Assembly (NCBI RefSeq): GCF_020700235.1 | Contig: NZ_CP085304.1 | Span: 124,001 to 188,000 of the forward strand | Source of the DNA: Haladaptatus pallidirubidus | GTDB taxonomy: Archaea > Halobacteriota > Halobacteria > Halobacteriales > Haladaptataceae | Direction of reading: 5' to 3' | DNA: 64,000 bases | Part shown: positions 2,226 to 12,486 of the stretch, piece by piece | How the letters are laid out: every line of letters begins with the position of its first letter | Numbering within the stretch: the first letter of the stretch is position 1 | Notes under the pieces: model-generated | The model's database searches: none | Told to the model about the DNA's origin: nothing | The model's input: only the letters and a program-made list of their open reading frames with translations | Made by a program: the position numbers and the translations under genes

Positions 2226-2795
2226 CTAAGAGTCAGTATTGGTGGTTGTGTTCCAGCGGCCGTATCCGCGTTGTTTGGCCTGCTGCTGTTTTTGTAGGAA
2301 CTCCTGTCGCTTGCTGAACTGGCCGTCTGGCACGCGAGCGTAGCCGATACGAACCAAATCAGAGTTGACCATGAAATTCCCGATGTAGACATACGCTCGT
2401 AGGTGGCCGTCGTCTGTTGTGCCCACCTCTGGGTCAGAGACGACTGTCACGACTTGATGATCCATTTGTGATTTCGTATAGCGAACTGCCTTCTTGTGGA
2501 TGGGACCTCTCTCAGGGACGCTCACACCGATCAAATCAACAGTGCGGTTCTTCCCATTGTGTTTGATCTTGAGCGTCGTCGGATCGATGATCTTGGTGAC
2601 ACGCGCTTGGAAGCGCTCGCTATCCTCAGGGGTCTCAATGTTCGCCGTCGTCGGCTGCCGCAGAGACGTCGTCTGTGTTTCTATTCTCGTCGTCGTTGTC
2701 GCGGCGTCGCTACTACCACCGAATCCAAGACCACCGAGACAGCCTGCGAGGACGATGAGCAGGGCAAGGCCGAGAATGGGGAGGGAGCGATGCAT
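2226..2795 (-). CDS. Lipoprotein with degenerate thermonuclease (SNase) fold
   Basis: Residues 1-19 are a Sec-type lipoprotein signal ending in the lipobox LAGC (Cys19), followed by a Ser/Thr-rich linker to about residue 60. Residues 62-181 follow the staphylococcal-nuclease pattern: ARVTKIIDPTTLKI, VDLIGVSVPE, HLRAYVYIGNFMVNSDLVRIGYARV and a Gln/Lys-rich last helix. Key residues look lost. By eye, the two Ca-binding Asp positions are Thr73 and Ser92, and the two catalytic Arg positions are Asp87 and His131; only Glu95 remains. So this is probably a membrane-anchored, inactive or altered SNase-fold protein facing outward. It lies 120 bases downstream of the membrane protein at 2916 on the same strand, a possible operon. 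Confidence 0.75.
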   Translation of the reverse strand: MHRSLPILGLALLIVLAGCLGGLGFGGSSDAATTTTRIETQTTSLRQPTTANIETPEDSERFQARVTKIIDPTTLKIKHNGKNRTVDLIGVSVPERGPIHKKAVRYTKSQMDHQVVTVVSDPEVGTTDDGHLRAYVYIGNFMVNSDLVRIGYARVPDGQFSKRQEFLQKQQQAKQRGYGRWNTTTNTDS

Positions 2796-3224: not shown

Positions 3225-3443
3225 GCTGAGAAATCGTGTTGATTGCAAATAACTCTTTATCTAATTCGATATACTATTGATATGGTTGTATATGCCGAGT
3301 GGAGCTATGCAATGAACAATCCATAGTAGTAGTTTGCAAGACACTGACCACAACCGGTACTGGCGAGCGAATGAATGCGCCGACCCGAACGCTCCGCAGC
3401 AGGCCGCCTCGACCGACCGGACCGCCACTGCTGACACCGGTGG

Positions 3444-3800
3444 GACAGTCAGACTCCTGTAGCCGGTTGTCAGTCGGATTTCTCGTGTAGCGGACACCAC
3501 ATTTCCGTAGTAATCTGGCCATCTTCAGTCGCACTCGTGCCTCTCGCATCAGTCTTGCACCGCCCGGATGACAGTCCCCTTTGGGTCGTGCTGGGCTGAC
3601 AGTCTGGTGGTGCTCGAGCTCAGAGAATTCAGTGTCTCGCCCGGAGGACAGTCGGCCCTGCTGTACGTGGTAGTTTGCACTCGGTGCAATGCGCCGTCGA
3701 CGCCGCAGCTAGCTAGAGGCTCGGCGTACTGGTCGCCAGATCTGACAGTCCCCTCTGTTGGTGGCCGGCGGACAGGGCAGGCTGTCGCTCGTGGACAGTC
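3444..3800 (+). repeat. GACAGTC motif array, six copies
   Basis: GACAGTC occurs at 3444, 3570, 3598, 3647, 3744 and 3794, several inside a longer GGACAGTCCC or TGACAGTCCCC. I see no copy of the mirrored form GACTGTC in this half. Spacing is irregular (28-126 bp), so this is neither a simple tandem repeat nor a CRISPR array. Confidence 0.75.
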
Positions 3801-3908
3801 CCACGTGCTGACGGTGCTGTCTGCTGTCGTCGCCTCTTCTCGCGCTGGTGCGCTCACTGAAACTCTGGTGTGTCGCCCACATTGGGACCCCGCTGGTGCG
3901 CTCGGGTC

Positions 3909-4014
3909 GGCACCCAGATCAGGCCGTCATATCGGCACCCAGATGAAGCGTGCTGGTGGTGGCACCTGGCCATGCCTCAGGCTGTGAGTAGAGATGTGTC
4001 GCTCGTCGGCACCC
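3909..4014 (+). repeat. TCGGCACCC motif, three copies
   Basis: GGCACCC lies at 3909, 3934 and 4008, each preceded by TC; the first two share the longer TCGGCACCCAGAT. The mirrored form GGGTGCC appears at 4577 and 4628. A second local repeat, CGCTGGTGCGCTC, occurs at about 3844 and 3889. Confidence 0.7.
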
Positions 4015-4062
4015 CCACGCTAGACGCACAGCGTTCTGTCGGGCCTGTTCCGGCCAGAAGTG

Positions 4063-4510
4063 GACTGTCCGGCCTTGTCACGCCCAGTGACTGTCCTGTA
4101 TGGTCGTGCTACGTTCTTTCTCGTGGTCATCACTCTGTCTCGGGGTGCTGCTGCTCGCGATGTTTCTCAGGAATTCCGGTGTGGTTGCACTCTCGCTGTC
4201 GGCTGTCTCGTCGCTCTCCGTGCTGTTCAGACCGTGACTCACTGCCTCTCGCCTGCCGCGGTTGCTACGGTCTTCGTGCTGTCCTGGACGCCAGCGCTCT
4301 CGGTCCCTGTTCACCGCTGCTCCTCAATTTGCCTTCGTCCTCTCTGTTGTCGTCCTGTCTTCAGTCGGTGCACTCCGTTGCTTGCTCTGCTGGTCGCGCT
4401 GCTGGACTGTCCCTTTCTGTTTCTCTCTGTTTCTTCTGGGTCCGGCATGGCCTGACTGTCCCACGGCCTCACTCTGCTCTTTTTCTCCTCGTGTTCTCGG
4501 GTGGACTGTC
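4063..4510 (-). repeat. GACTGTC motif array, five copies (mirror of left array)
   Basis: GACTGTC, the reverse complement of GACAGTC, occurs at 4063, 4089, 4405, 4454 and 4504, mostly as GGACTGTCC or TGACTGTCCC. I see no GACAGTC here. The copy at 4504 shares downstream bases (CCCCTCTGTT) with the copy at 3744. Confidence 0.75.
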
Positions 4511-4576
4511 CCCTCTGTTCGCTCGCTGTTGATGGGCTGTTCGCTCGTCGGTTTCTCGCCTGTGCTGTGCCTGTTG

Positions 4577-4634
4577 GGGTGCCCCTGTTCACGTCATATC
4601 TCCCACCATCACTTTCGTGATAAGTTGGGGTGCC
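4577..4634 (-). repeat. GGGTGCC motif, two copies (mirror of TCGGCACCC)
   Basis: GTTGGGGTGCCCC occurs at about 4574 and 4625. This is the inverted orientation of the GGCACCC motifs at 3909-4014, giving a second motif family that flips across the same centre. Confidence 0.65.
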
Positions 4635-4891
4635 CCTTGCTGCTGTTACACTCGTCATTTGCTCTCTGGTGCCCGCCAGAATTTCCCGCTCTTCTCGGGG
4701 GCGTCCTCGCTCCGCGTTGAGTCGCGCACACACATTTCCAGTTTCTGATAGAACTGTGGGATAGCCCCATGGCGTTATTTTTTGGTGTTGTTCACCGCTT
4801 CATGCACAGCTATCGGGAGTTCTTGATACAGCTGTATAGTGCCCTAATATTGAAGGCGTACTACCTCAATAGTGCTGGGTATAGGCATACT

Positions 4892-5389
4892 ATGGACTCT
4901 GACAACTCCACACCAACCCCTGAAGAGATGCGAGACAAGCTGGGCGACCAGCGCCGGAAAATGCTCGCCACACTCAACCGGGCCGACGAGGCCACATTGG
5001 ATACATCAACACTCCGACAACGGGCCGACGTTCCCACCGGAAGTATCGACCATCATCTCAAGCTGCTCACCCGCTGGAATCTCATTGAGCAACAACCAGA
5101 TCGCACCTACACTGGGCAAGGTGGTTCACGTGCTCGCGTGTGGCAGCTCACCGACGACGGAGTGGCATTCATCGAGGACCATGACGACGTGCTCTCACCA
5201 CCAGAAACCGCACAGACTGCCACACGGGTAACCGCGCTTGAAAATCGTATCGAAGACCTCGAAGCGGAAACTCGCCAGCGGCGGCAGGTTATCATCGATA
5301 TCCTCGAAGTCATCTCCGGAGCACAAGACGACGAAACGCAAAAACAAGTACAACAGATCCTCGCAGAGGCCGACACGAAACTATCGTAA
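4892..5389 (+). CDS. Winged-helix DNA-binding protein with C-terminal coiled coil
   Basis: 165 residues from the ATG at 4892 (MDSDNSTPTPEEMRDK). Residues ~25-95 look like an ArsR/MarR-type winged helix: a helix-turn-helix in LDTSTLRQRADVPTGSIDHHLKLLTRWNLIEQQ, then a wing ending WQLTDDGVAFIEDH. Residues ~110-160 form an amphipathic coiled coil (TRVTALENRIEDLEAETRQRRQVIIDILEVI), so it probably dimerises. It sits between the mirrored motif block and the transfer operon, making it a candidate binder of those motifs (partition, origin or operon control). Its last nine bases overlap the convergent 3' end of the VirD4-like gene. Confidence 0.75.
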   Translation: MDSDNSTPTPEEMRDKLGDQRRKMLATLNRADEATLDTSTLRQRADVPTGSIDHHLKLLTRWNLIEQQPDRTYTGQGGSRARVWQLTDDGVAFIEDHDDVLSPPETAQTATRVTALENRIEDLEAETRQRRQVIIDILEVISGAQDDETQKQVQQILAEADTKLS

Positions 5390-8263
5390 TACGCCAAATC
5401 CACTGTTTGACTCGATACTTTCCTCCTCGTCTCTGTTCGTATCGCATTCACTGCTCAAGTTCTCGGTAGTCGGTGCTGTATCTTCCTCTCGCTCGGTGTC
5501 CACGTCGTCTTCGGTGCCTGTCTCATGCTCGTCCCTCTCATCACCTGTGACTGATTCATCGGTACCTCCTCCGTTCGATTCCAGCTGATAGCTGGATACA
5601 TCGTTCACCAGATCGGTTAACGGTGTCTGTGTCTCGCCTTCATACAGTCGGATATCCATCGGTGTTTGTGTCTCTGGCGGAACCACGATCACGTCCCACT
5701 CGACCGCATCAAGGTCGCCATCCATTTCGTACTCGGGGATCATCGGCGGCTTGATATTCCGCTCGCCACCGCTCGGGTACGCACTCGCGTCGGTGAAGAT
5801 GTCGGCTGCCGACTCGAAGCGTGCATGAACGGTGCCCTCACTGTCGCGTAGCACGTATTCGTCCGTCTGCTCATCATGTACCCAGACGTTCTCCCGACTT
5901 CCAGGTCGGGTCATCGTCTCGCCGTCAATCGTAAGCATCTGAGTGCTGGTGTAGAACCGCCGTTCGTCATCCACCGGGTGATTGCTCCGACAACAGAACG
6001 GCGTGTTTGCGACCGTCTCATACACATTCTCGGCGACGTCCTCTCGGGCAAAGAACAGACAGCGATGCCCGGCGTTGTGGGCTTGGGCGAGATTTTTCAC
6101 CGTCTGTGAGGGTTGGGTGCTGCCGGTCGTGTGTTCACTCTCAATATAGACGTCCTTCGCTCCCGCAAGGCGATTCAGGAGGGCGTGATTGTCCCGATAG
6201 GTGGTCACTTTAGCAGTGATCTCTTCGGGATCGTCGGTGTCGTCGATTGCAAGCATCTCATCAACCCGTGCGAGACCGTCCGGCATTGCGTTGCCCGTCT
6301 GATCTGGAATTTCGAAGATGAAGCCAAGCTGCGTCAGTGGGACATAGGCATCAGCCATCGGTGCCCAGTGTTCCGCCCCGCCGTCATTCTCGCTATCGCC
6401 GACGTTCATGAAGCTCCGAGAGCGCACCTTCACTTGGCTTTGGCCGCTTTCTTCGCGATACTCAAGATAGGCTTCGGGGATGTCCTTGAGCACATGCCGC
6501 CACGCACGTTCGGCGGTCTCAACCCCACCCCTCGCGGGGAGATAGTCGGTGAGCCGATCGAGACATGCCTCAATCGGGATGAACGCACCCGGTTGTCCCT
6601 GTCGGATGCTCTCGTCGTAGATGGCTTTCAGTGCTGCATCACGCGATCGTTCGTCGTTAGCTGTATCGAGTGTCTTAGCACTCGCTTTCTCCGGCGTGAC
6701 ACTCTCGTTCATCCCGCCAAACTTGAGCTGGCGCATCATCTCGTCGTCCGTGAGTGGTGGGGCCGCGAACCGCTCCAGACTTTCAGTGATAATCTCCTCC
6801 GCTTCGTCTTCATCGCGGATGTTCGGATACGGCGCGAACGTCTTGAGCTTGAGCGCACCAGAGAACCGGGTACCGCCGTCCAGCGGGATGCGGGACCAGA
6901 TCCGATGGTTTTCGAGTTCAGTGAAATCCTCGATATCACAGTCACTCAATCTCCGTGTGAGTGGGCGGGCGTCTTCGTCGTCCAGCACGCGGAAGAATAC
7001 ACCCGTGTTGCAGTTGTTTTTGACTGGCTTGAGCACGCCTGACTCTTTGAGTTGCGTCGGATACTGGCAGGCTAAGGTGACCGAGAGGCGCATCGAGCGG
7101 GCGCGTGCCAGCATGTCATCGACGTCAAGGTTCTTGTGGAGGACGCGATCGGCTTCGTCGAGGATCGCGAAGAACGGTGTTTTCTCTGCGCCTTCGATTG
7201 AACGGTTCTGAATCGCATTCCACAGCGGGCGAAGCGTCCCGAGTGTCACAAGTTGCTTGATATCATCGTCGGAAACCGCCGTGCGAACGATGACGATCTT
7301 TTCGTCATCGAGGATGTCCCGAAAGTCGATCGTACTCGCACGACACCCCGCGATTCGGCGGGTGACGGGACTCTCGACCCACGGCTTCAGCCGGGTTATC
7401 ACGGGTCGGACAGCGTCGTCATCCATTTCGGCGATTTCGGAGACGAACTCACCGACCCACGGATCGTCAATCTCCTCGGCGAAGTCCTCACGCCGTTGGG
7501 CGTTCAGGAGGACGAAGTACATATCGAGCACACAGTACTGCTCGTCTCGATCCTCGATCTCGTGATTCGCCTGCATCATCGCCCGTGCCATCGACTCAAC
7601 AATGGCGTTCATCCGCGGTCCCCAGTAGTCGTCGCCCGACAGAACGGCCTTGAGCACCTGAATACGGTCGGTAACGTGCTGTTCAAGCTCTATTTCGCTC
7701 TCACAGTCCGGCACTTCGAGGAAGTTGATCCCGATACTTCGATCGTGATCGTCGTCACCCGGTTCGATCCAGATCACGTCGTCATGCCGATACTCGGGGA
7801 GCTTCTGGAGGAGTTCTTTGCTGTCCTCGGCCTTGGGGTCGAAGTAGATGAACCCGTAGCCTGCCCACGCGAGCTGCACCATCCAGTTCAGCATCTCGGT
7901 CGTTTTCCCCGCGCCAGTGGTGCCGACAACCCAGAGATGCTGAAAGAGCTGATTGAACTCCACTGGTGCTGGATCAAAGCCCTGCTGGGCGCTGTCATTG
8001 TAGCCCAACCACAGTGGCATGTCTGGATGATCGCGAGCGCGTTCGAGCAATTCGCGGATCTCTGGGCCTGCCACCGGTCCCTGCTCTTCGGTCTCAGTGA
8101 TCGTTTCGGTCATTCCATCCGCCGCGTACTCTGCACCTGTTTGGGTGAACCCGTACGGTTCGTTTGTGATCGTCGTTGAGATGGATTCGTTCTCCTCGGC
8201 TTCCTTCTCCGCTGATTCATCCGCCGAATCGTCTTCACCACTCCCGAAGAGTCGGTTAAACAT
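5381..8263 (-). CDS. VirD4/TraG-like type IV coupling ATPase
   Basis: 960 residues from the ATG at 8263 (MFNRLFGSGEDD). An acidic N-terminus leads to a P-loop ATPase: Walker A GTTGAGKTT at ~114-122 (WVVGTTGAGKTTEMLNWMVQ), Walker B FFAILDEADR at ~364-373 and the sensor-like LACQYPTQL at ~398-405. These match the HerA/FtsK superfamily branch that includes conjugative coupling proteins, which feed DNA or protein into a type IV channel. The long C-terminus has a restriction-like or unknown domain and a Thr/Glu/Asp-rich tail. No membrane segments are obvious, so it may need the partner at 8256-9320 to reach the membrane. Its start overlaps that gene by 8 bp (translational coupling). Confidence 0.8.
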   Translation of the reverse strand: MFNRLFGSGEDDSADESAEKEAEENESISTTITNEPYGFTQTGAEYAADGMTETITETEEQGPVAGPEIRELLERARDHPDMPLWLGYNDSAQQGFDPAPVEFNQLFQHLWVVGTTGAGKTTEMLNWMVQLAWAGYGFIYFDPKAEDSKELLQKLPEYRHDDVIWIEPGDDDHDRSIGINFLEVPDCESEIELEQHVTDRIQVLKAVLSGDDYWGPRMNAIVESMARAMMQANHEIEDRDEQYCVLDMYFVLLNAQRREDFAEEIDDPWVGEFVSEIAEMDDDAVRPVITRLKPWVESPVTRRIAGCRASTIDFRDILDDEKIVIVRTAVSDDDIKQLVTLGTLRPLWNAIQNRSIEGAEKTPFFAILDEADRVLHKNLDVDDMLARARSMRLSVTLACQYPTQLKESGVLKPVKNNCNTGVFFRVLDDEDARPLTRRLSDCDIEDFTELENHRIWSRIPLDGGTRFSGALKLKTFAPYPNIRDEDEAEEIITESLERFAAPPLTDDEMMRQLKFGGMNESVTPEKASAKTLDTANDERSRDAALKAIYDESIRQGQPGAFIPIEACLDRLTDYLPARGGVETAERAWRHVLKDIPEAYLEYREESGQSQVKVRSRSFMNVGDSENDGGAEHWAPMADAYVPLTQLGFIFEIPDQTGNAMPDGLARVDEMLAIDDTDDPEEITAKVTTYRDNHALLNRLAGAKDVYIESEHTTGSTQPSQTVKNLAQAHNAGHRCLFFAREDVAENVYETVANTPFCCRSNHPVDDERRFYTSTQMLTIDGETMTRPGSRENVWVHDEQTDEYVLRDSEGTVHARFESAADIFTDASAYPSGGERNIKPPMIPEYEMDGDLDAVEWDVIVVPPETQTPMDIRLYEGETQTPLTDLVNDVSSYQLESNGGGTDESVTGDERDEHETGTEDDVDTEREEDTAPTTENLSSECDTNRDEEESIESNSGFGVLR

Positions 8264-9320
8264 CTTTCTCCCCCGTGATGTACCCGCTGTGCTCGTGGGA
8301 CCCGACCGGCACCTCTTCGCCACGTTTGGTCTGGCGACGATCGAGCTGGGCGATCGAGATATCTGCTGGCGGCAGGTGCACAATTGGGGCGATCTCGAGT
8401 GACGTGAGCAGCATCTTTTCCCCGGACCACTCCCGGCGGGCCATCGTTTCGGCGAGCGTATTCGGCGAACTACTTGGCTCGACGATGAACGCCTGCTCGG
8501 TCTTTGAGTTGTAGTAGCTCGCGAAGGAGGCACCAACCGCCTCAGCATGGTGCTTGACTGCTTTCTTGTCGTCACCGACCGAGAGGTGGCGAATCATCAC
8601 ATCAAACGCCTTCTCTTTCGCACGTCGATCGAGGACGTTTCCGATCTCTGTGGCATCGGCTGTTTCTTTCTCGCGCTTGGTTTCGGCGAGGTTGTGAATC
8701 GTGTAGACACCGTTCAAATGGTAGTAGAGTTCGGTGAGATTCGTCGTCAGAAGCCGTCCTGTCTGCCAATTCCGCGTCGTCGGGCGAAACATGACTTGGA
8801 TGACACTCCGTACTGACTCTCGACCGGTCGCACCGCCTGCTTTCACGGCATCATCCACGATATCGCCGAGGACAGTCTCGTATGGGTCGTCTTCGCGGAA
8901 GCCTTCGAGGTCGCGGCGACGTATTGGCCACCATCGGTGCTTTCGGAGCGTCCACTCACCACCGGCGACGTAATCCCCCTCATCGATGTGTATGAGGTCG
9001 GCCTCTTCCCTCCGAACGTCCGAATCAGGATACTTGTGCCGAAGTCGGGTGAGGAACCAGTGGAAATCGTCGCTGCACGGCAGGTAGCGGAAGCTGATCT
9101 GCTCACCGTCGTAGACGATCTCGGCTGCACGGGGCACGCTTCGCTTCCCACTCAGATCTGAGTGGGAGGGATGGACGGATTCGAACCACTCGATCGCAGT
9201 GTCTATCCCGCCGTCGTCTTTGAACGGCCGAACGCGAATGAGCTCATCACTAGCTTGGTTGTTGGACTCTATACCGAGTTGTGCGGCACTGTACTCGGCT
9301 GACCGACTCAAGCGACTCAT
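8256..9320 (-). CDS. Partner protein of the coupling ATPase, unknown domain
   Basis: 354 residues, ATG at 9320 overlapping the upstream stop by 4 bp. Soluble, mixed alpha/beta; visible stretches include IRVRPFKDDGGIDTAIEWFESVHP, FHWFLTRLRHKYPDSDV and LLTSLEIAPIVHLPPADISI. No catalytic motif. It resembles proteins that precede HerA/TraG-type ATPases in haloarchaeal transfer clusters, where they look like the detached N-terminal domain of the ATPase. I infer it docks the coupling ATPase to the channel or membrane. Confidence 0.55.
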   Translation of the reverse strand: MSRLSRSAEYSAAQLGIESNNQASDELIRVRPFKDDGGIDTAIEWFESVHPSHSDLSGKRSVPRAAEIVYDGEQISFRYLPCSDDFHWFLTRLRHKYPDSDVRREEADLIHIDEGDYVAGGEWTLRKHRWWPIRRRDLEGFREDDPYETVLGDIVDDAVKAGGATGRESVRSVIQVMFRPTTRNWQTGRLLTTNLTELYYHLNGVYTIHNLAETKREKETADATEIGNVLDRRAKEKAFDVMIRHLSVGDDKKAVKHHAEAVGASFASYYNSKTEQAFIVEPSSSPNTLAETMARREWSGEKMLLTSLEIAPIVHLPPADISIAQLDRRQTKRGEEVPVGSHEHSGYITGEKDV

Positions 9321-9577
9321 CGGCCTGCCCCCGGAATGAGTTTTGAGGCTCCGATTAGCACACCGATGATCGCGAGATACGACGCGACGATGTCACCGAG
9401 TAGCGCGCTGAGTTCTGGTGCTGAGTAGCCCAGGAACGCCGGCACGAATCTGTTCGTGAAGAAGACCGCGAACAGCCGCTCGGCGAGGAACGTTGAGAAC
9501 TGCTGGATGAGTGGGACACTCGCGAGTGTATGAAACGCGGCCACTACCATCTCGACAGCCTGGAATAGGAGGTTCAT
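9317..9577 (-). CDS. Small membrane protein in transfer operon
   Basis: 86 residues with two hydrophobic stretches, ~5-25 and ~47-80 (SALLGDIVASYLAIIGVLIGASKL). Both ends overlap neighbours by 4 bp, so it is translated as part of the operon. Position between the VirB4-like and coupling genes suggests a small inner-membrane channel part. Family not recognised. Confidence 0.6.
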   Translation of the reverse strand: MNLLFQAVEMVVAAFHTLASVPLIQQFSTFLAERLFAVFFTNRFVPAFLGYSAPELSALLGDIVASYLAIIGVLIGASKLIPGAGR

Positions 9578-12486
9578 TCCCGCTCACCTCCGTCAACCGC
9601 CATTACCGAACGCTTTGCCGTCGTCTCACTCTCCGACTCATCACTGGTTTGCTGCCCATCATCGAAGCGATCGCCAAGCTGGCGCTGTAAGTACTCATGC
9701 CAGTTGCCGTGGTCACTTGGTTCGTAATCGACGATCGAGAACTCGACCGGATTTACATCCATGCTCATCTCAACCCGTTGCGGGTAGCACTCCCGCGTTC
9801 CATCCTCGTCTACAGCAAGTAGCATTTCCGAATACCCACGGTCCTTGTCGCCCGGCAGAGCACTGTTGACGAAGGTTGCTTCCTCGGCGTTGAGCCCGAT
9901 TTCACTCCCGAACTCGGGGGTCATATCGTCCAAGTGATGAAAGCACATCATCGAGGAGTTGTTGAAGATGACCTCTGCCTGCGATTTGAGCGCACTCGTC
10001 CCCTCGTCGTCTTTCGCGTAGAACTCGCTGATTGACTGGGTGCTAAAGAGCAGCGAGAGGTTATAATGCCGGGAGTGGCGTACAACCTGCTCAAGGAACG
10101 TCAGGTTGTCCGCGTGCTTAGTGAGATACTGCGCTTCGTCAATCAGAATCATCGTCGGGTCGTCGCTTTCTTTGGCCATCTCGTAGACCGACGTGAGGAG
10201 CAACCCGAGCATCAGCCCCGTTTCGCCTTTCCCTTCCTTGAGTTGCAGATCGAGGTAGAAACTCCCGCCATCGGCGTTCAAGTCGAAGCCAGTTTCCTTT
10301 GTGAAGTGCCGATAGCGCGTGCGGAACGCTTCAATGTCCTCGGAGAGCACCCGTTCGGCCGCTTCGCGCGTTCGCAGTGGGACGTCCGTTTCACTCAAAT
10401 CAGCGTCGAGGAGGTCCCCCATCTGGTGAATCTCGGGGTTGTCACCCACCCCAGCAATGTGAGCGATCTCCTGAATCACGTCGCGAAGCGTTGGTGAGTC
10501 GTTGCCGTGCGTGCTCGGATCCTTCGTGATTCCCTTCTCGTTATAGGCACGGCGTCCGGCTTTCTCCCAGACGTTCTTTTTCTCCGCTTCGAGTTCTCGG
10601 TCTTCGAGGTCGTAGAATATCTCGACGAAACTCATGAAGCGCTCCATCGCCTCACTGAACGGCGTCGTACGTCCCACGACCGATAGCTTCTCCTCGGGTG
10701 TCTCTTTGATTTCGAGTGGATTGAGGCCCGTCTCACCGCCCACGACGATCTGCTCAGCATCGAAGAGCTTCGACGGGCCTGCAAGCCCTTCGAGTGGGTC
10801 GATGAGCACGACGTTCATCTCGGGGTTGCGTTCTTTGAGTTGGGTGAGGATCTTCTTCGATGTCGTCGATTTCCCGCTTCCGATCTTGCCGAACACCATC
10901 ATATTGTAGCCCATTCCCCGAAGGTACGGATCGACAATCGTGGGCTCGTCCCGATCGTGATGGATGCCGACCTCAATTCCCGATGGCTCGTAGATGTTGT
11001 TCGACGTGTAGGGCATCTGCTTTGCCAACGCCCGTCCAAGCATCGGCGTGGCCTTATTCATCGAATCGTAGACGAGCGGTGCAGCCGAGTGGGTCATCTC
11101 CTCCTGCTGGAAGTGGGCAGGCACGACCTCGCACCGAGCGGGTTGCTCTTTGAAGCGCTGTTTCATCGTCTTCGCCGCATCGAGCAGCTGCTCTTCGGAG
11201 TTGGCGCGAAGGCTCACGTACGTCGATGTCATGAACAGCCCCGACCCAGACTCAGTCAGGGAATCCTCGATGTCAGAAGCTGCTTGCCACTTGCGATAGG
11301 CTGACTCGGCTCCCCAGTGGCCTTCTTGCTCTTTCTTCTCGTAGTCGCTCCTGTGTTTGATCTTGTTTTTCTGGGACTGTTGCCGGGCATCGGATTTTGA
11401 GATCCCAAGCGCATGGGTTGAGAGCGTAATATGCACGCCGGGTGTGTTCAACACGTCACGAAACATGCCAATATCAGGGTTCTCCGGCCAATTCTCGACC
11501 CACATTCCAAGGACGTAGGTCTCCTCGTCTAGGACAAGATAGCGCTGATCATCATATCGAACCGACTCGGGAGCGAGAAATGACCGATAGTTCTCGGCGA
11601 GTGGATCGCTGTCCTTTGTCTGCACATCAACCTCGTAATCTGCATCTACATCGGCATTCCCGCCCACAACCGGCGAGTCATGGATCAGTGCCCGAATCGT
11701 CTCATCGGGAATCGTGGCTGCATTGTCCGCTCGGTAGTAGGAGCGAAGCAACCGTGTGAACTCGACAAGTGAGATCGGCGTCCCGGTGATACCATCGACG
11801 CTTCCGAGTGCCTGAACGACGCTGTCAACTCGCTTGTTTAGCCGAGCAGTTAAGTCCGTACGGAGCTGCTCGAGGTCATCGCCGTAGTTGTTCATCCGAC
11901 GGGCCTTGATCTGATCGCCGATGAGCGGGAGGTTCGTTGCACTCCCGAACAATCCAGCAGCATCGTCCCACGATTCGGAGAGTTCGACCGGCATGACCTT
12001 CACGAGGATGTAATGCTCGCGAACAAGCACACTCTCGTGGTCGTCGTCGATAATCTCCACTCGTTCATCGAGCAGGCGACGTTGCAGGCGATCCATTCCC
12101 GTGAGGTCTTTTCCGTCAGGCCGTTCAGCCGCCATTTCGTGATAATCCTCGCGATAGCTCTGCTTATCGAGTGAGCGAAGCGTGCTGTACTGCTCAATCT
12201 CGAAATCGACGGTTGTTGAGAGGGCTTCATCCAGCTGCTTGATGCGGTCTTCCCACTGGGATGCCGTTTTCGTACTCATGTTCGCTGGGTCGACGCGGAT
12301 CGCGGCAACAACTGAACGGTCTGCCAATTCCACGGCGTTGTGTGCCGGAAGTGGTCGGTTCACGGGAACCCACTCTTGGGTGGATTGGCCGCTGGTACTC
12401 GTCACGAATCGACGGACGAGAGGGACTGTTTGGAAGAGTTTCTGTGCGGTCGGATGCTCGTTTGCGGGTTGGGCGTTCTGACTCAT
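9574..12486 (-). CDS. VirB4/TraC-like conjugation ATPase
   Basis: 970 residues. The N-terminal ~500 residues match the CagE/TrbE/VirB-type region; the P-loop ATPase has Walker A GKIGSGKSTT at ~533-542 and Walker B TMILIDEAQYL at ~778-788, followed by VRHSRHYNLSLLFSTQS (sensor region). VirB4 proteins power type IV secretion and pilus assembly and are the most reliable marker of such systems. It lies 42 bp downstream of the VirB3-like gene, the usual VirB3-VirB4 order, and overlaps the next gene by 4 bp. The start MSQNAQPANE is the only sensible one. Confidence 0.85.
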   Translation of the reverse strand: MSQNAQPANEHPTAQKLFQTVPLVRRFVTSTSGQSTQEWVPVNRPLPAHNAVELADRSVVAAIRVDPANMSTKTASQWEDRIKQLDEALSTTVDFEIEQYSTLRSLDKQSYREDYHEMAAERPDGKDLTGMDRLQRRLLDERVEIIDDDHESVLVREHYILVKVMPVELSESWDDAAGLFGSATNLPLIGDQIKARRMNNYGDDLEQLRTDLTARLNKRVDSVVQALGSVDGITGTPISLVEFTRLLRSYYRADNAATIPDETIRALIHDSPVVGGNADVDADYEVDVQTKDSDPLAENYRSFLAPESVRYDDQRYLVLDEETYVLGMWVENWPENPDIGMFRDVLNTPGVHITLSTHALGISKSDARQQSQKNKIKHRSDYEKKEQEGHWGAESAYRKWQAASDIEDSLTESGSGLFMTSTYVSLRANSEEQLLDAAKTMKQRFKEQPARCEVVPAHFQQEEMTHSAAPLVYDSMNKATPMLGRALAKQMPYTSNNIYEPSGIEVGIHHDRDEPTIVDPYLRGMGYNMMVFGKIGSGKSTTSKKILTQLKERNPEMNVVLIDPLEGLAGPSKLFDAEQIVVGGETGLNPLEIKETPEEKLSVVGRTTPFSEAMERFMSFVEIFYDLEDRELEAEKKNVWEKAGRRAYNEKGITKDPSTHGNDSPTLRDVIQEIAHIAGVGDNPEIHQMGDLLDADLSETDVPLRTREAAERVLSEDIEAFRTRYRHFTKETGFDLNADGGSFYLDLQLKEGKGETGLMLGLLLTSVYEMAKESDDPTMILIDEAQYLTKHADNLTFLEQVVRHSRHYNLSLLFSTQSISEFYAKDDEGTSALKSQAEVIFNNSSMMCFHHLDDMTPEFGSEIGLNAEEATFVNSALPGDKDRGYSEMLLAVDEDGTRECYPQRVEMSMDVNPVEFSIVDYEPSDHGNWHEYLQRQLGDRFDDGQQTSDESESETTAKRSVMAVDGGERE

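Follow-up and report, generated by a model that had tools for sequence, protein, structure and literature searches.

A conserved non-coding block of phased motif arrays beside VirD4/VirB4-like genes of haloarchaea: a candidate transfer site

Introduction

What might a non-coding block filled with short repeated motifs do beside the transfer genes of a haloarchaeal plasmid? The question arises in the window, the 64,000-nucleotide stretch of Haladaptatus pallidirubidus DNA analysed here, which corresponds to positions 124001-188000 of the 276-kb plasmid-like contig C4 (NZ_CP085304.1) in a genome of 6.27 Mb. The original prediction described two motif families mirrored around one centre and proposed a bidirectional replication origin, a partition site or a place where the transfer machinery encoded nearby is loaded. 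Archaeal conjugative plasmids have been reported without recognisable relaxases, and their transfer mechanism has not yet been worked out in detail (PMC9905601). In the literature that we searched we found no description of a haloarchaeal oriT, and the prediction's remark that no haloarchaeal origin with these motifs had been described also stands within that literature.

Results

The block contains four motif arrays that switch within a short interval

The block and its parts lie in the window as follows.

3249..4768, no strand assigned: conserved cis-element, non-coding, carrying four motif arrays ordered A-B-A'-B' (supported by DNA homologues, indels and motif columns)
3444..3800, plus strand: array A, six GACAGTC (3444, 3570, 3598, 3647, 3744, 3794)
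3909..4014, plus strand: array B, GGCACC(C) at 3909, 3934, 3961 and 4008
4015..4062, no strand assigned: switch interval, across which one motif family inverts its core and the other exchanges its centre base
4063..4510, plus strand: array A', five GACTGTC (4063, 4089, 4405, 4454, 4504), A-poor and pyrimidine-rich
4577..4634, minus strand: array B', GGGTGCC at 4577 and 4628, the inverted core of array B

The repeats are genuine and far exceed chance expectation. GACWGTC occurs 11 times within the 1.52-kb block and nine times across the other 62.5 kb of the window, a density of 7.2 per kb compared with 0.14 per kb (about 50-fold; Poisson P ~1e-15 at the outside rate). When the block was shuffled 5000 times, the mean number of sites was 0.42 and the maximum 5. 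An equal motif density elsewhere in the replicon had been named as grounds for abandoning the original prediction; on the whole 276-kb contig the block is the only cluster with at least four GACWGTC per 1.5 kb.

A motif scan recovered the predicted six GACAGTC on the left and five GACTGTC on the right, unmixed, but the nature of the switch had to be revised. GACAGTC had been said to flip into its reverse complement. Since the motif is nearly palindromic (GAC-W-GTC), the left/right flip concerns the centre base alone; this base does switch, but the flanks keep their plus-strand orientation and there is no inversion. In 134 left and 109 right copies, 88 of the 109 right sites fitted better un-inverted, with a mean difference of 2.80 bits versus 1.67 +/- 0.19 for shuffled flanks, and over all 243 aligned sites the flanks hold the plus-strand orientation (GGTGACAGTCC / GGTGACTGTCC) beyond the effect of composition. 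For the second motif the core does invert, with GGCACCC at 3909, 3934 and 4008 and GGGTGCC at 4577 and 4628 in the window, and this inversion is real across copies (41/46). The full motif TCGGCACCC, found at 3907, 3932 and 4006, however has no reverse complement anywhere in the window. Both families indeed switch within 4015-4062, as a single centre implies, but the order is A-B-A'-B' rather than the A-B-B'-A' of a true mirror image.

As predicted, pyrimidines dominate the plus strand of the right half, with 64-70% C+T and A falling to 4-6% at 4249-4548. AT skew shifts from about -0.15 to -0.77 in this half, while GC skew changes much less. The skew change expected at ~4000 was thus absent from GC skew, which does not flip there, and present in AT skew, which does.

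A wHTH gene and transfer ATPase genes accompany the block

The genes flanking the block are listed below.

2226..2795, minus strand: SNase-fold lipoprotein, left of the block and transcribed away from it (Pfam SNase, 5.4e-9)
4892..5389, plus strand: wHTH protein of 165 aa with a predicted C-terminal coiled coil, candidate array-binding adaptor (profile matches)
5381..8263, minus strand: coupling ATPase resembling VirD4/TraG (T4CP); its gene and the wHTH gene converge (Pfam, NCBIfam)
8256..9320, minus strand: 354-aa protein, a conserved partner of the T4CP at many loci (tblastn; no Pfam match)
9317..9577, minus strand: 86-aa protein in the same gene row as the T4CP (tblastn over loci)
9574..12486, minus strand: VirB4-like transfer ATPase (NCBIfam VirB4_plasma 5e-40, CD1110 VirB4-like 3e-30)

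The T4CP matched TrwB_AAD_bind (1.4e-6) and TraG-D_C (2.6e-5) as well as TraD/VirD4-like NCBIfam models, and its exact start was taken from the overlap in a close homologue. A profile of the wHTH protein (alignment, n = 20) matched archaeal, PadR-like and ArsR-like wHTH structures. The protein's similarity to Replic_Relax PF13814 was weak and fell below threshold (E 7e-4), and its single-sequence structure prediction was poor (mean pLDDT 54).

Nearly every complete block detected purely through DNA similarity had both the wHTH gene and a gene for a coupling protein beside it. The block was nearly always just upstream of the wHTH gene, which was convergent with the VirD4 gene, often with VirB4 next; at some loci the coupling gene sat a few kb off. 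The SNase lipoprotein gene was detected by tblastn left of the block at about half of the loci. Of the functions first proposed, loading of the adjacent transfer machinery is the one that the presence of VirD4/VirB4 beside almost every complete locus supports. Identity of the wHTH protein among loci was 37-57%, far more variable than the motifs. As the protein varies more than its putative targets, a host protein may be the binder.

SWIM zinc-finger genes, and sometimes SprT-like genes, recur a few kb left of blocks (L067, L070, L031). A seryl-tRNA synthetase gene is carried on the plasmid-like contig C4 at 607-1884 of the window, on the minus strand.

Order and phase of the arrays are conserved across haloarchaeal loci

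The block, 1.2-1.5 kb in size, recurs at over 25 loci, which belong to Haladaptatus, Natrinema, Haloterrigena and Actinarchaeum. A DNA search revealed a second copy in the same genome (89% identity), copies in seven of the eight other sampled genomes of the genus, and copies on plasmids of Haladaptatus, Natrinema and Haloterrigena, while a protein-guided search added loci in Actinarchaeum and further families. Three GACTGTC about 50 bp apart occurred in 17/382 genomes of the order, including every genome of the genus; a reversed control almost never matched, and the matches outside related genera include simple repeats.

Spacing over copies had periods of ~25.5 bp in array A, ~25.1 bp in B and ~24.9 bp in A', and the sites followed a ~25-bp lattice with a mean cosine of 0.58-0.87, compared with at most 0.25 for random positions. 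The centre bases of GACWGTC ran A...A then T...T, unmixed, in 22/23 analysed copies. At L017, the sole mixed copy, the wHTH gene is broken by a TAA stop, which is what would be expected if array and protein decay together. Across five pairs of copies, motif columns were 88% conserved versus 59% for the rest of the block.

In another family, locus L096 (contig C11 of genome G285) kept the A-B-A'-B' order and the ~25-bp lattice with different motifs (GGATGCC, GGTGTCC, GGCATCC and GGACACC), 1.5 kb upstream of a wHTH gene. Two plasmid loci of Halococcus dombrowskii (L058, L059) carry GGACCCCC repeats upstream of the wHTH gene, partly 26-27 bp apart; the lattice test on these repeats was not significant, and we therefore count them as suggestive only. 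No such array was present upstream of the wHTH relatives found by profile at L084-L092, and a 25-bp lattice scan of all sampled wHTH relatives showed the distant ones to be mostly without arrays. A search for wHTH relatives in viral contigs found none.

The block has frequently changed much less than the genes around it: between the window and L028 it shares 84% DNA identity, compared with protein identities of 37% for the wHTH protein and 40% for the T4CP. The opposite is seen between the window and L031, where VirB4 and the 354-aa protein are 96% identical and the block is barely alignable. The block therefore appears to move as a module.

The block is neither a gene nor a structured RNA

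Some 1.2 kb conserved without a common gene annotation might be a protein gene that was annotated wrongly, or specify a large structured non-coding RNA. In five pairs of copies, 52/54 short indels were not a multiple of 3, a pattern that rules out coding, and the mismatches had no codon periodicity. Coding homologues over the block, which would have counted against the original prediction, are thus ruled against. Rfam gave no match at threshold for the block, and RNA folding of both halves was no better than for shuffled sequence (z -0.18 and +0.39). These results make an RNA or protein gene extremely unlikely.

Genes for replication and partition are far from the block

On C4 the Orc1/Cdc6 genes are located at 35.9-38.3 kb and the block at 127 kb, about 88 kb away; ParA genes lie at 0.3 and 39.5 kb, the latter beside the Orc1/Cdc6 pair. 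On a complete 80-kb plasmid (NZ_CP111039), orc1 and parA lie together, about 27-29 kb from the block around the circle. Neither replicon has next to the block the orc1/cdc6 gene of an Orc1-type origin or the parA/parB operon of a ParA-type centromere. The extremes of cumulative GC skew on C4 fall at 72 and 196 kb, away from the block, and on the 80-kb plasmid no extreme coincides with the block either.

These positions bear on two of the functions first proposed. A bidirectional replication origin, perhaps a second one, could explain why the arrays are phased and iteron-like and why AT skew changes locally at the centre, and haloarchaeal Orc1-linked origins are likewise repeat-containing intergenic DNA on a megaplasmid. 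The block differs from those origins in having no adjacent orc1 or other replication gene, the Orc1/Cdc6 genes being far off on the replicon, and the skew is confined to the block, with no cumulative extreme there on C4 or the 80-kb plasmid; an origin now seems very unlikely. A partition or incompatibility site, or centromere, on which the wHTH protein would act like AspA of pNOB8, fits the phased palindromic sites next to a wHTH gene. The wHTH profile has weak matches to AspA structures (E 0.22-0.24), and the two loci from Halococcus have a ParA gene at a distance of 3-6 kb. At loci other than Halococcus, however, the ParA/ParB neighbour is absent, ParA accompanies orc1 at the distances given above, several arrays can share one replicon, and the linkage is to VirD4/VirB4 instead. 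We consider a partition site quite unlikely.

The arrays might also form an extended operator, coated by the wHTH protein or a host regulator, that controls the divergent SNase and wHTH genes and thereby the transfer genes. The block does lie between the leftward SNase gene and the rightward wHTH gene at many loci, and the wHTH protein resembles transcription regulators. Yet 11-20 sites over 1.2 kb would be unusual for an operator, a gap that generally exceeds 340 bp separates the wHTH start from the nearest GACWGTC, the array persists at the roughly half of loci that have no SNase gene, and it is better conserved than the genes that it supposedly regulates. Regulation as the role of the arrays is therefore unlikely.

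The block resembles transfer origins and loading sites

A transfer origin or loading site best accounts for four features taken together: linkage to VirD4/VirB4, replication and partition genes located apart from the block, phased arrays, and the orphan copies described below. On balance we favour, by a modest degree of confidence drawn from comparative sequence evidence, the reading of the block as an oriT or translocase-loading site of a haloarchaeal conjugation-like VirD4/VirB4 system. Like an oriT, it has adjacent genes for a coupling protein and a transfer ATPase, and it is non-coding with repeats and inverted repeats as putative accessory-protein sites. The relaxase and recognisable nic site of an oriT were not found: the genome has no match to PF03432, the sole relaxase family searched, and no nic site was identified in the block. 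Related plasmids were typed as non-mobilizable. The block likely works in the manner of an oriT or a clt site, as a candidate for either class.

Among known systems, pCW3 of Clostridium perfringens (PMC6137059) has a wHTH gene (tcpK) beside the short tandem boxes of a non-coding oriT, in a transfer gene row that includes a coupling ATPase. That oriT is 150 bp long and has a known relaxase, TcpM, whereas the haloarchaeal block measures 1.2-1.5 kb, has no recognised relaxase, is archaeal and is built of four arrays (A-B-A'-B') on a 25-bp lattice. The clt of Streptomyces, with its 8-bp TRS (PMC4170104), is likewise made of short repeats on which a DNA-pumping ATPase assembles. Double-stranded DNA is transferred by clt/TraB, which provides a model for loading without nicking (PMC4170104). 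TraB, however, is a single FtsK-like protein that itself reads the repeats (PMC4170104), whereas the block is accompanied by VirD4 and VirB4 homologues and by a wHTH protein distinct from them, and its arrays run in both orientations; its coupling neighbour is VirD4-like, not TraB. In the staphylococcal pWBG749 family (PMC8136818) the accessory-protein binding sites of oriT diverge between subtypes, but these oriT sites are shorter and have a relaxase and the accessory protein SmpO. Haloarchaeal integrated elements with fusexin genes (PMC9259645) are mobile elements that also carry VirB4, TraG/VirD4 and HerA-type genes; the parts of that report consulted here describe no cis-acting transfer site.

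A mechanism can be proposed on this basis. A DNA-binding protein, most simply the adjacent wHTH protein and possibly a host-encoded one, would occupy the phased sites ~25 bp apart and form an ordered nucleoprotein complex, to which the A-B-A'-B' arrangement would give polarity. The VirD4 ATPase would then be recruited to this complex, and DNA would be processed or entered near the switch interval at 4015-4062. A bolder version, which we regard as fairly unlikely, is a relaxase-free archaeal transfer origin, where phased arrays would hand DNA, possibly double-stranded, from the switch interval to the VirD4/VirB4 pump, and where motif sequences could vary provided that the order and the 25-bp phase persist. 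A compact conserved cis-element beside VirD4 offers a concrete sequence for cloning, deletion and footprinting, and its signature could find mobilisable haloarchaeal replicons that standard typing calls non-mobilizable.

Orphan and partial copies of the block

Orphan copies without nearby transfer genes are a common, though not defining, feature of oriT sites, and staphylococcal pWBG749-family oriT mimics (PMC8136818) lie on replicons without transfer genes. Here, L014 has a complete array and no wHTH or T4CP gene nearby, L010 has an array with a truncated wHTH gene and no nearby transfer genes, and partial copies also occur. Contig C2 carries one complete locus and four partial or orphan arrays, and the idea of one block per replicon was dropped for this reason. 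A split block suspected on contig C5 of genome G007 was rejected when the second locus proved complete.

The partial copies comprise several left halves and one right half. Their ends fall mostly within about 200-250 bp of the block centre rather than at one nucleotide, and L113 and L114 end earlier; their clustering hints that DNA may be processed or recombined there. Three left halves (L115, L125 and L127) have an identical junction after CACAGCC or a variant of it, at ~7130, 6527 and 6759 in block orientation, adjoining a conserved gene of ~267 aa with no Pfam match. The exact junction shared together with the adjacent gene indicates that the three descend from one ancestor, and a precise nic site read from shared breakpoints was accordingly discarded.

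On contig C1 of genome G000 a segment is repeated 551,849 bp apart (~1,648,039 and 2,199,888), with both block copies and several ATPase genes showing this same offset. Either a duplication introduced by assembly or an integrated plasmid present in tandem may account for the repeat.
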